Origin: Pseudaquabacterium terrae
GTDB lineage: Bacteria; Pseudomonadota; Gammaproteobacteria; Burkholderiales; Burkholderiaceae_C
Direction: 5' to 3'
NCBI RefSeq assembly: GCF_013266755.1
Contig: NZ_JABRWJ010000003.1
Location: forward strand, 186,001-250,000
Length of the DNA stretch: 64,000 nucleotides
This document shows, piece by piece, positions 20,726 to 62,370 of this stretch. The position numbers were made by a program, and so were the translations under genes. How positions within the stretch are numbered: the stretch's first letter is position 1; each line of letters opens with the position of its first letter. The notes beneath the pieces were generated by a model that was given only the letters and a program-made list of their open reading frames with translations, did not search any database and was not told the DNA's origin.

Positions 20726-21463
20726 TTAGCGACGTCGCGCTGCGGCGGGCGCTTTTCGGGCACTGGCGGGCTTGGCTGGCGCTGCCCCGGGCTTGGCCGG
20801 CGAGGTCCCGGGCTTGCCCGCGGCCCCGCGCTTGCGTGACGCGTTGGCGTGCCCGCGTGCCGGCTTCGCATCGTCGAGGATCTTCTCGAGCGCCTTGCGC
20901 ACGCGCACGATCATCGCCTGGTCGACAGGCACCAGGCCGAGCACCCAGTACAGCCACAGGCCATCGACCGCGGCGACGACGACGTCACCGATGCCCTCGG
21001 GCAGCTCGTCGTCGGCGACGCGGCGGTGCAGCTCGGCGTAGGCCTCGCGCATCGGCTCGAGCAGCTGCGGGTTGTGCGCCAGCGCCGAGAAGGTCGCGGC
21101 CGAGCCGCGCTGGCAGCTCACGCACCACTCGTGCATGTCGCGCAGGTTGGCCGCGAGCAAGCCGCGCGCCATGCGGCCCGGGCCGGCCGGCACCTGCTCG
21201 TAAGCCTCGGCGTTGTGGGCGCGGATGTTGCCCGCGGTGCGCACCACCAGCGCCTCGACCAGCCGGTCCTTGTTCGGAAAGTGGTGCAGCAATCCGCCCT
21301 TGCTGACCTTGGCTTCGGCCGCGACCGCGTCGAGCGTCAGGCTGGCGATGCCGTCGCGCACGATGACGGCTTCGGCCGCATCGAGCAGCGCATCGAGGCG
21401 CGTCGCGCCGATATCGGGGCTGGCGGGCGGGACCAGCGGTCCGCCGAACGGGCTGGGAGGCAT
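20726..21463 (-). CDS. TetR/AcrR-family regulator with a Lys/Ala/Pro-rich C-terminal tail
   Basis: A 245-residue regulator. The N-terminal TetR helix-turn-helix spans about 20-70 (ALLDAAEAVIVRDGIASLTLDAVAAEAKVSKGGLLHHFPNKDRLVEAL), followed by a ligand-binding domain with WCVSCQRGSAATFSALA. After residue ~200 comes a disordered basic tail rich in AKP and RK steps, unusual for the family and resembling histone-H1-like tails. Its own promoter region carries a 20-bp operator at 21554 identical in plan to two sites before the efflux operon, so it probably represses both itself and the pump. A structured repeat (21463-21540) abuts its start codon. Confidence 0.93.
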   Translation of the reverse strand: MPPSPFGGPLVPPASPDIGATRLDALLDAAEAVIVRDGIASLTLDAVAAEAKVSKGGLLHHFPNKDRLVEALVVRTAGNIRAHNAEAYEQVPAGPGRMARGLLAANLRDMHEWCVSCQRGSAATFSALAHNPQLLEPMREAYAELHRRVADDELPEGIGDVVVAAVDGLWLYWVLGLVPVDQAMIVRVRKALEKILDDAKPARGHANASRKRGAAGKPGTSPAKPGAAPAKPASARKAPAAARRR

Positions 21464-21540
21464 CAGGACCGCCCGGCCGTTCCGAAGGTCCTGAGCGCCC
21501 CCTTGGGGGGCTGCGAACGAAGTGAGCTTGGGGGCACCAT
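21463..21540 (-). repeat. Structured leader element, copy A (before the TetR gene)
   Basis: Read on the minus strand this ~78-bp element contains CCCCCAAGCTCACTTCGTTCGC, a GCCCCC-CAA-GGGGGC hairpin, then TCAGGACC-N16-GGTCCTGA, an 8-bp perfect stem whose last base is the A of the TetR ATG. A second copy lies at 62293-62370 with a different but equally complementary terminal stem. There is no Shine-Dalgarno sequence between the element and the ATG. Confidence 0.75.
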
Positions 21541-21553
21541 GGGGGCGGAGACT

Positions 21554-21573
21554 AACCGTCCAGTCGGTCGGTT
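21554..21573. promoter_or_regulatory. TetR-type operator O3 upstream of the TetR gene
   Basis: AACCGTCC-AGTC-GGTCGGTT is the most symmetrical of the three sites: 7 of 8 positions are matched between arms (AACCGTCC against AACCGACC). It lies about 90 bp upstream of the TetR start, beyond the structured leader element, suggesting autoregulation. Confidence 0.75.
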
Positions 21574-21641
21574 GTCAACCGGGCGCGCTCCAGGAACACC
21601 GTTTGCCGCGAATTCGGGGCCACCACTGCAGGAGACATCTC

Positions 21642-21906: not shown

Positions 21907-23349
21907 TCAGTGGAGGTTGAGCCCCGGGACCGGCGTGGGCACCAGCACCTTCGTGACGAACTCGCCGAGTCCCAGCACGCCAAGCTGGTTCGCGCCGCAG
22001 GCCCAGACCGTGCCGTCCGTTCGAACCAGCAGCGTGCCGCGGCTGCTCACCGCAGCCACGTCTGTCACGGCATCGAGACCGGGCACTCGTGTCGGCGGCT
22101 CGATGGCCGTGTCGGTGCCCAGGCAGAGCTTGCCGGCGTTGTGACCCCAGCCGGACACGCCGCCGTCCCGATGGACCACGATCGATTGCAGGGCGCCTGC
22201 GGACATGGCCACGACGTCGGCAATACCCGGCACCGGGGCGGGCACGCTCGACTGCGTGGTCGCCGTGCTCAGCCCCAATTGGCCGGCGTTGTTGCGCCCC
22301 CAGCTCCACACCGTGCCGTCCTGCTTGAGCGCCAGTACGTGCTGGGCGCCGCCGGCGATCCCGATCACGCCATCGAGCCCCGGGATCTGCACCGGCTGCG
22401 CACCGGTGGTCGCGCCCGCCGCCACGGCGCCAGCGCCCAGGCCGTACTCGTTCAAACCCCAGAACCACACACTGCCATCGGCGCGGACGATGAAGATCGC
22501 CTGCTGGGTATGGGCGACGTCGACCGCATCGTTGAAGCTGCCCATTCGCACGGCCTTGTTGGTCGCGTCCGACGGCATGCCCGTGGCGCTCATGCCCCAG
22601 CGCCAGACGCTGCCATCCGATCGAATGACGGCCTGCCGCGTATCGGCTGACGACAGGTGCACGGCGGCACTGGTCACCGTGACGGGACCGAAGGACAGCT
22701 GCTCGCCGAGGAAGCTCCCGTTGCCCAGCGTCCCGCCCGAGTTCGATCCGGCAGCGAGCACCGTGCCCTGGCTGCCGATCACGCTGCTGTGGCCGACGCC
22801 CAGCACCACGCCGATCGCCGTTCCGGGTCCCATCACCTGCTTCGGCAACCACTGCGTCGCGCCCTTGGCCGTGCCGTCTCCGAACTGCCCGGACAAGTTG
22901 CTGCCCCAGGTCCAGATCGAGCCATCGGCCTTGATGGCCATGCTGCTCAGCGCGTTGTAGCCACCGGCGATGCGTGGTGTGCGGCGCGGGCCGGTGGTGC
23001 ACGAGGCCGGATACACCAGGCACGCGAAGGCGGCCAGCTCACCGACGTAAGCCGGAACGGTGGCACTGCCCGCGATCGGTCCGAGGATCCACACGCCGGT
23101 GCCCGCGACGCCGACGCAGTTGCCGGTCTCCGGGTAGCAGCGGTAGACGTAAGGCGCCAAGCTCTGGTTGGCCTGGTGCGAAGGGAAGTAACCCGCGTAG
23201 GCCTCTTCGGCCCAATCGAACAGCGCTGTGGCGTCGGGCACCCGCGGTGCCGCGATCACCGCTTCGAGAGCGCCACCGAGGAGCAGCGTCGCCAGCAGGC
23301 GTCGAAGTGCCCTCGAGCCGGCGCGAATGCGAGCGCCTTGATCGTGCAT
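21907..23349 (-). CDS. Exported RCC1-repeat (beta-propeller) protein
   Basis: A 480-residue secreted protein. A signal peptide (RRLLATLLLGGALEAVIAA) is followed by an N-terminal module, ALFDWAEEAYAGYFPSHQANQSLAPYVYRCYPETGNCVGVAGTGVWILGP, and then about six RCC1 repeats with the signature DGSIWTWGSNLSGQFGDG / DGTVWSWGRNNAGQLGL. RCC1 repeats fold as a seven-bladed propeller and bind proteins or ligands; in bacteria the role is mostly unknown. The start at 23349 places the signal peptide correctly; an ATG at 23385 is an alternative. It is encoded alone, convergent with the DUF3606 gene. Confidence 0.88.
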   Translation of the reverse strand: MHDQGARIRAGSRALRRLLATLLLGGALEAVIAAPRVPDATALFDWAEEAYAGYFPSHQANQSLAPYVYRCYPETGNCVGVAGTGVWILGPIAGSATVPAYVGELAAFACLVYPASCTTGPRRTPRIAGGYNALSSMAIKADGSIWTWGSNLSGQFGDGTAKGATQWLPKQVMGPGTAIGVVLGVGHSSVIGSQGTVLAAGSNSGGTLGNGSFLGEQLSFGPVTVTSAAVHLSSADTRQAVIRSDGSVWRWGMSATGMPSDATNKAVRMGSFNDAVDVAHTQQAIFIVRADGSVWFWGLNEYGLGAGAVAAGATTGAQPVQIPGLDGVIGIAGGAQHVLALKQDGTVWSWGRNNAGQLGLSTATTQSSVPAPVPGIADVVAMSAGALQSIVVHRDGGVSGWGHNAGKLCLGTDTAIEPPTRVPGLDAVTDVAAVSSRGTLLVRTDGTVWACGANQLGVLGLGEFVTKVLVPTPVPGLNLH

Positions 23350-23410
23350 GGCGGATCCCGTTGCGGAAGTCTCGAGGGAGCGCATTGTGATCCCGACCGG
23401 CGCAGGTCGG

Positions 23411-61393: not shown

Positions 61394-62293
61394 TCAGCGC
61401 TCCGCCAGGAACGCCAGCACCTGCTTGGCCACCGCGTCCGGCCGCTCGCGCTGCAGGAAGTGCCCGCATTCGTCGAGCACGACGCGGCGGAAGCCGCCGG
61501 TGTAGAACGCCTCCTGCCCGAGCTGCGTGTCGACGAACAGGTCGACCGCGTCGCGCGCGCCCTGCAGGTTCAAGGTCGGCGATGTGATGCGGGGGTCCTG
61601 TGCCAGCCGGTGGCTCGCCGCGGCGTCGCGCGGATCGGCGGACGGGTCCTGATCGAAGGATCGATAGGCCGACAGCACGACCGCGGTCCAGTCCGAATTG
61701 CCGAGCGACAGCGCCAGCGACGCAAACTCCGCCTCGGCGAAGCGCCAGCCCGGCGACCACTGCTCCCACAGATAACGCGCAAAGCACGCGCGGTCGGCAT
61801 CGATCAGCGCCTGCGCCAGCGGCGTCTGGAACAACCACTGGGTCCAGCCGGCATGCAGCGTCGCCCACGAGGGCCGCTTGCCCTGCGCGAACACGGCAGC
61901 GTTCAGCAGCCCGTGCCCGTTCAGCAGCACCATGCGCTCGACCCGCTCGGGGTGCAGGATCGCCAGTGCCTGCGCGGTCGCGGCGCCCCAGTCCTGCCCG
62001 ACCAGCACGACGCGGTCGAGGCGCAGCGCATCGAGCAGCGCGAGCAGGTCGCGTGCCCTCGCCGCGGGCTGGCCGCTGCGCGGCGTGTCGGCCGAATGGA
62101 AGCGCGTGGATCCGCAGCCGCGCACGTGCGGCGCCAGCGCGTGGCGGCCGGCGGTGGCCAGGATCGGGCCGACGCCGCGCCAGGCGCTGGCGTCGTCCGG
62201 AAAGCCATGCAGCAGGATCAGCGGCGGCTCCCGGCCTGGCTCGCCATAACGCTCGAAGCCGATGTGCAGCTGGTCGGTGTCGACGTGCTCCAT
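61394..62293 (-). CDS. Alpha/beta hydrolase (epoxide hydrolase / haloacetate dehalogenase-like)
   Basis: A 299-residue alpha/beta hydrolase. The oxyanion motif HGFP is at 29-32, the nucleophile is D101 in LVGQDWGAATAQ, and the catalytic histidine is H278 in DECGHFLQRERP. An Asp nucleophile with HGFP and the DWG pattern is that of epoxide hydrolases and fluoroacetate dehalogenases. Substrate is not decided by sequence. Upstream lies the structured repeat copy B that directly abuts this start; there is no Shine-Dalgarno in front of it. Confidence 0.93.
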   Translation of the reverse strand: MEHVDTDQLHIGFERYGEPGREPPLILLHGFPDDASAWRGVGPILATAGRHALAPHVRGCGSTRFHSADTPRSGQPAARARDLLALLDALRLDRVVLVGQDWGAATAQALAILHPERVERMVLLNGHGLLNAAVFAQGKRPSWATLHAGWTQWLFQTPLAQALIDADRACFARYLWEQWSPGWRFAEAEFASLALSLGNSDWTAVVLSAYRSFDQDPSADPRDAAASHRLAQDPRITSPTLNLQGARDAVDLFVDTQLGQEAFYTGGFRRVVLDECGHFLQRERPDAVAKQVLAFLAER

Positions 62294-62370
62294 CAGTGTC
62301 CGCCCGGCCGCCCGAAGGACACTGAGCGCCCCTCGGGGGCCGCGAACGAAGTGAGCTGGGGGCTGACCAT
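62293..62370 (-). repeat. Structured leader element, copy B (before the alpha/beta hydrolase gene)
   Basis: Read on the minus strand: CCCCCAGCTCACTTCGTTCGC, a GCCCC-CGA-GGGGC hairpin, then TCAGTGTCC-N15-GGACACTGA, a 9-bp perfect stem whose last base is the A of the ATG. It differs from copy A in the stem sequence but preserves the pairing. The element extends to 62370, where plus-strand GACCAT occurs as in copy A (CACCAT). Confidence 0.75.

Follow-up and report, generated by a model that had tools for sequence, protein, structure and literature searches.

The 64-kb window analysed here, a stretch of the Pseudaquabacterium terrae genome, holds two copies of a dispersed palindromic repeat of about 70–100 bp that is most likely mobile and would insert on start codons, with a subtype placed just after stop codons. 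We consider it probable that this is a MITE-like mobile repeat, lying on start codons or just after stops, that relays ribosomes by translational coupling. This reading is built on what the sequence itself contains, namely the architecture of the element, its copy number, the covariation of its terminal stem, the conservation of reading phase and the presence of empty sites in relatives.

Both window copies are 78 bp long, lie on the minus strand and consist of exactly one 25-codon open reading frame each, from ATG to TGA. Copy 1 (21463..21540) encodes MVPPSSLRSQPPKGALRTFGTAGRS, with its ATG at 21540..21538 and its TGA at 21465..21463; copy 2 (62293..62370) encodes MVSPQLTSFAAPEGRSVSFGRPGGH, with ATG at 62370..62368 and TGA at 62295..62293. 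In both, the TGA of this mini-ORF overlaps the ATG of the next gene as TGATG, the stop/start overlap expected of translationally coupled cistrons. The gene behind copy 1 (20726..21463, ATG 21463..21461, minus strand) belongs to the TetR family, and that behind copy 2 (61394..62293, ATG 62293..62291, minus strand) encodes an alpha/beta hydrolase; Pfam agrees with the original prediction on both. The core, G/C hairpin and stems that it had described also lie where it placed them. In copy 1, the conserved core GCTCACTTCGTTCGC (21513..21527) is followed by the G/C hairpin (21497..21511) and by a terminal stem whose upstream arm (21487..21494) pairs with a covarying gene-side arm (21463..21470) that takes in both the stop of the mini-ORF and the first base of the TetR start codon. 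Copy 2 has its core at 62342..62356 and its terminal stem arms at 62317..62325 (upstream) and 62293..62301 (gene side), again on the minus strand. Without mismatch, the core occurs twice in the 64-kb window.

Ahead of copy 1 we recognized a putative promoter on the same strand, with a -35 box, TTGACA (21573..21578), assigned by eye, a 17-nt spacer and a likely -10 box, TTAGTC (21550..21555), which stands 9 nt upstream of the mini-ORF start codon. Read one base further on, the hexamer TAGTCT ends 8 nt ahead of that codon, and in the TetR ortholog of Aquabacterium humicola it ends 7 nt ahead of the TetR gene's own ATG. The putative promoter holds a palindrome, AACCGACC-GACT-GGACGGTT (window 21550-21578), near-identical by eye in the A. 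humicola ortholog, which is a possible TetR operator and a candidate for autoregulation. Further upstream, a minus-strand ORF (window 21907-23385) has repeated W-x-W-G-x-N-type blades, which we take to resemble RCC1-like repeats.

The original prediction described a two-copy element, which is true only of the core within the window. In the same genome, 8.04 Mb on 56 contigs, BLAST gave at least 40 matches (113 candidates, 40 of them scored), and a covariance model built from 26 copies gave 104 matches at E <= 1e-4 and 122 at E <= 0.01 (150 of 12,972 first-look candidates scored). The per-copy statistics below cover 112 of these 122 matches, those at 39 bits and above, with the ten weakest left out. 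Model matches were 67–100 bp long, except for one of 45 bp, and the GC content of 73 matches was 70–82%. Tandem copies occur in this genome (C2:27729/27803 and C34:404456/404535) and in two others (G014:C23 and G008:C8). Some copies carry an internal insert with GGATCCGAAGGATCC that gives a second hairpin (C55:357102, C12:392020, C1:22676), and in several copies this insert adds nine codons with the frame unbroken.

Within the genus, 20 of 21 genomes had matches at E <= 1e-4, and within the order, where filters were stricter and 16 candidates per genome were scored, 18 of 300 genomes (own included) matched at 1e-6. Named genomes contributed at least 107 matching stretches; among the 80 listed, most came from Burkholderiales and Rhodocyclales, and Achromobacter was among the named hosts. 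Twenty genomes chosen from these 80 loci, which contain a match by construction, held 1 to 82 matches each at 1e-5. Plasmid records gave five matches for copy 2 and four for copy 1, and phage records searched with copy 1 at E <= 0.01 gave none. Lysobacter, Stutzerimonas and one Phycisphaerae MAG have one copy in common, behind AGGAGG (L219, L230, L236), perhaps as part of a mobile island common to all three; the frame continues 720 nt beyond the element in L219 and L236, apparently into the gene (L230 was judged by eye).

The location in front of genes that had been proposed from two copies holds for many of the others: an ATG lies at -4..+8 of the stem end in 70 of 112 covariance-model hits, against 16.8 expected from shifted windows. 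The prediction had missed that some copies follow stop codons or stand in reverse orientation. At the other end of the element, an ATG lies 3–12 nt ahead of the C-run in 88 of 112 copies, compared with 10% in control windows. We grouped these 88 by a crude coding score, so that gene calls and groups are themselves crude. In 33 (S group) a gene start lies behind the element and there is no upstream gene stop; 31 (O group) have a gene start behind them and a gene stop ahead, the latter within 14 nt of the mini-ORF ATG; and 24 (E group) have no gene start at the stem end, 16 of them falling within 14 nt after a gene stop. The S group includes two reverse-type copies (C8:37101, C12:113050), and the E group another two.

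The three groups differ in what precedes them. Of the 33 S copies, 23 have a loose -10 box ending 5–10 nt ahead of the mini-ORF ATG, against 3.25 in shifted windows; the same box was found in 3/24 E copies, 4/31 O copies and 7/61 crudely called window genes. With the strict pattern TANNNT, the counts were 13/33 for S copies and 1/61 for window genes. Spacing of this kind would place the transcription start at the ATG, suggesting a leaderless start. Among the 73 in-phase mini-ORFs, a Shine-Dalgarno-like 4-mer precedes the start in 5; for the 58 gene starts behind them the count is 8, and a similar count over window genes gave 28/61. The lack of a Shine-Dalgarno sequence behind the element would be compatible with a gene coupled to the mini-ORF. 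Coupling does not explain the E copies after stops, since these have no gene to feed; they may be tolerated as the upstream ribosome reads on. One subtype, marked by CTTGGGAACGGCCCGGCG and reading MSAPSSLRSRPPRGAQSAWERPGAD in its frame, begins within about 4 nt of a gene stop (C45:300295, C6:30347, C23:585562) and in most cases lacks a gene start behind it.

We then set aside 17 reverse-type or odd copies, which left 95 forward copies, 84 of them with an ATG. In 73 of the 84, the first stop in frame with the ATG is the one at the stem end, compared with 27.0 expected for a random frame. Because copies share descent, such counts are not independent; scored by distinct combination of ATG offset and element length, 26 of 31 were in phase (9.6 expected, P = 2e-9). 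A cross-genus set behaved in the same way. From its 80 loci and 81 pattern matches, 24 of the 81 were dropped for want of context or of a recognizable right end; an ATG stood 3–12 nt ahead of the C-run in 47 of the remaining 57 (control 8.3%), and the frame was in phase in 35 of these 47 (14.7 expected) and in 20 of 23 combinations (7.4 expected, P = 9e-8). The frame pattern could also have been inherited from one ancestral copy, with no selection on frame. The copies are indeed related, and 90 of the 95 forward copies contain no stop triplet before the end in any forward frame, so that an open frame is by itself no evidence and the weight falls on the phase between ATG and end. We nevertheless find inheritance alone unlikely, as changes in length and offset compensate for each other, including inserts that take the ORF from 25 to 34 codons in the longer variants, and as 9 of the 15 reverse-type copies shown form an ORF whose ATG is on the opposite strand. 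These nine ORFs end 4–8 nt past the element, eight of them on an ATGA start.

The product of the mini-ORF is far less constant than its phase. Sorted by peptide pattern, the 73 in-phase mini-ORFs use two main reading frames (37 and 32 copies) and others in four cases, and copies in Thauera and Cognatazoarcus use a further one; no single peptide is therefore conserved, and it is the passage of ribosomes, not one peptide, that seems to be maintained. The same diversity bears on a peptide-dependent attenuator, in which a leader peptide would stall ribosomes. Some frames do contain PP, but at this same position both the frame and the peptide vary, and we give this explanation very little credence. 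Out of phase with the end were 11 of the 84 forward copies with an ATG, two of which continue in frame into the gene (C8:45180, C1:520299).

The original prediction had seen a compensatory change between the stems of two copies, and this pattern extends across the genome. We measured covariation by permuting arms, since the model alignment was out of register between length classes. Parsing succeeded for 107 of 112 copies, in which the contiguous terminal helix averaged 7.48 bp, compared with 4.13 bp when right arms were permuted (maximum 4.62 in 200 permutations), and 87 of the 107 had a helix of at least 7 bp. These copies contain 67 distinct arm pairs; the arms thus vary between copies and pair within a copy, which supports selection on the paired form, whether as DNA or as RNA. 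Predicted folds of the individual copies were mixed. Each folded by itself as sense-strand RNA, copy 1 forms the terminal stem, with a z-score of -0.74 and 43 of 200 shuffles folding as well, and copy 2 pairs differently in its minimum-energy fold, with no simple terminal stem (z-score -2.33); on the opposite strand, the terminal stem is predicted to form in both. The stem may therefore matter as DNA, given the sense-strand fold of copy 2, and with copy 1 predicted to be no more stable than its shuffles the covariation is no proof of RNA function.

These results also speak to a cis-regulatory RNA, riboswitch-like or thermosensor-like, in which the stem would gate the start codon independently of the mini-ORF. 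A covarying stem that ends on the A of the ATG speaks for such a switch. A pure RNA switch would not need the mini-ORF phase that is kept in 26 of 31 combinations, though, nor would it account for the 24 of 88 ATG-bearing copies with no gene start behind, and a search of the window against Rfam at the gathering score gave no match. We regard this explanation as improbable.

Comparison with the nearest relative compared, A. humicola, revealed what many sites look like without the element. Genome G001 shares its hit coordinates with A. humicola RJY3 (G343), and we therefore take this relative to be that species. Using one joined query, we sought 16 of the 33 S-type gene starts, hand-picked after their upstream sequences had been seen, and found 15 orthologous start sites, 14 of which lack the element; the ortholog of C1:430270 has at least two tandem copies. 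At 12 of the 14 empty sites, a -10-like box lies 6–10 nt before the mini-ORF ATG here and 6–9 nt before the gene ATG in A. humicola, a proportion that overstates the genome-wide rate because the hand-picked sites are enriched for the box (loose -10 box at 15/16 picked and 8/17 unpicked sites). The TetR site is among these 12: here TTGACA, 17 nt and TTAGTCT are followed by the mini-ORF ATG, and in A. humicola the same promoter is followed by the TetR ATG. Upstream DNA aligns between the two species at 10 of the 12 (not at C53:495666 or C1:1073495), and downstream similarity starts at the gene ATG in 12 of the 15 orthologs and 6 to 15 nt inside the gene in three, including TetR (6 nt).

Stop-type and operon-type sites gave a similar picture. 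We hand-picked 18 and found 15 orthologs in A. humicola, 13 of them without such a hairpin; the other two hold another hairpin, which at one of them (C12:406727) still runs from ATG to TGATG. In Thauera phenylacetica and Cognatazoarcus, the element sits between the Shine-Dalgarno sequence and the gene, three relatives lack it, and a compensatory base-pair change sets the stems of the two filled sites apart. We infer from the filled and empty sites that the element was inserted here rather than lost in the relative. By eye, the filled/empty pairs, in which the ends of the element are approximate, showed no clear target duplication beyond ATG or TGA. The operon site C12:700258 has no simple empty site among the orthologs shown, where the whole intergenic stretch differs. 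At the orthologous site, other genus members (L143, L144, L148) carry dissimilar GC-rich stretches with C/G runs; these may be related repeats that the model does not capture. Copy 2 could not be compared in this way, its hydrolase gene having only distant matches (best 72% identity).

How much of this requires a role for the element is where the strongest competing explanation enters. The element could be a purely selfish or neutral palindromic repeat with no regulatory role, its start position and open frame being merely what survives purifying selection, and we hold this to be a real possibility, if somewhat short of an even chance. The 14 empty sites among 15 imply high turnover, and the peptides differ by frame, both of which speak for a selfish repeat. 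Random insertion followed by filtering should leave many copies at arbitrary intergenic positions, however, yet 88 of 112 have their ATG in one narrow window.

Movement by a RAYT transposase, as for REP elements, was considered separately. REP, BIME and REPIN elements are abundant GC-rich hairpins associated with RAYT, and the present repeat resembles them in being a GC-rich palindrome of high copy number with some tandem copies; unlike them, it is longer, lies at start and stop codons and occurs in a genome without the Y1_Tnp domain. A profile search for Y1_Tnp gave no match in this genome; in a control search, 5 of 14 known genomes matched. At least one Y1_Tnp was present in 13 of the 21 genus genomes and none in 8, including G001 and G008, the next two in the genus by copy number of the element, and over the 21 genomes the presence of Y1_Tnp did not parallel the number of copies. 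A REP/RAYT system is accordingly very unlikely to be the explanation.

Among described repeats, the closest in outline is the Betaproteobacterial repeat element BRE (Hot et al. 2011, PMC3110155), which the main text of that paper portrays as a GC-rich sequence of 75–91 bp (mean GC 69%, range 63.7–78.9%), dispersed in Betaproteobacteria with features of mobile elements, usually intergenic, sometimes overlapping ORF ends by a few bases and sometimes in tandem with few bases separating the copies; copies at the lexA locus of Bordetella belong to this description. Size, Betaproteobacterial hosts, position and tandem habit are common to BRE and our element, and the GC content of the latter overlaps the BRE range but runs above it. 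Section 14 of PMC3110155 gives no function, mini-ORF, start-codon rule or comparison of filled and empty sites. The element is perhaps BRE, a likeness by description; as the main text of PMC3110155 prints no BRE sequence and the GC content here is somewhat higher, we have not filed it under that name. Searches of the openly licensed PMC literature found only the 2011 paper on the 'Beta-proteobacterial repeat element', no paper on such a start-codon rule among those listed (titles and the beginnings of abstracts) and none by sequence fragment; PMC11722255 contains no occurrence of bprJ or BRE.

The element also resembles ORF-bearing bacterial MITEs such as the Rickettsia palindromic elements (RPEs), short palindromes that contain open frames and lie between genes or are fused to them; passages of PMC2229807 and PMC10969869 note RPEs for in-frame fusion inside proteins. 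Unlike an RPE, the frame of the present element mostly closes with a stop that overlaps the gene start, and two fusions to a downstream gene were recognized in this genome. According to the part of a review concerned with coupling (PMC12548453), overlapping stop and start codons are common in coupled gene pairs, NTGA being the most frequent form and TGATG less so, and proposed mechanisms include both re-initiation and the opening of structure around the second start. The element has the same combination of overlapping stop and start with structure near the downstream start, but the upstream cistron is a repeated element and not a host gene. This also brings to mind integrons. Short ORFs encoded in attI help to translate cassettes that lack a Shine-Dalgarno sequence, much as the mini-ORF would bring ribosomes to a gene without a start context of its own; attI is a single integron attachment site, in contrast to a dispersed repeat.

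Returning to a mobile repeat that relays ribosomes, we propose the following sequence of events. After insertion, which would be by transposition, the former ribosome supply of the gene would precede the mini-ORF ATG: in the genome of the window often a -10 box just ahead of the ATG, giving a leaderless start, or the stop of an upstream gene, and in Thauera-type genomes a Shine-Dalgarno sequence. Ribosomes would read about 25 codons through the hairpins, opening them, and would terminate at the TGA that lies within the terminal stem; this stem would shield the gene start until a ribosome has passed. Translation would then resume at the ATG of the gene proper, which overlaps or adjoins that stop (TGATG, ATGA or TGA-CC-ATG), so that expression of the gene would be coupled to translation of the mini-ORF. 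The original prediction had offered two options, an element that may set translation or a mobile repeat that brings a start context, and each now appears partly right. Its start position and covarying stem stand; the ORF at the former start and the presence of about a hundred copies had escaped it.

Insertion at a start codon should kill the gene, and the repeat appears to avoid this by means of a frame that hands the ribosomes back. How the element finds start codons, by targeting or through selection, is the question that this raises. We would suggest only tentatively that insertion is aimed at translation starts (AUGs at transcription starts or behind stops) and that in some species dozens of mini-ORF-coupled genes have thereby come under one translational input, as a re-initiation-sensitive regulon; the genes behind the element presumably include ParB- and MnmA-like ones. 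If ribosomes are relayed as proposed, a single genome would offer dozens of natural tests of re-initiation and of leaderless starts. Such mini-ORFs could also account for odd short ORFs and mis-called starts in the annotation of Betaproteobacteria, and the published BRE repeats may gain a testable function.
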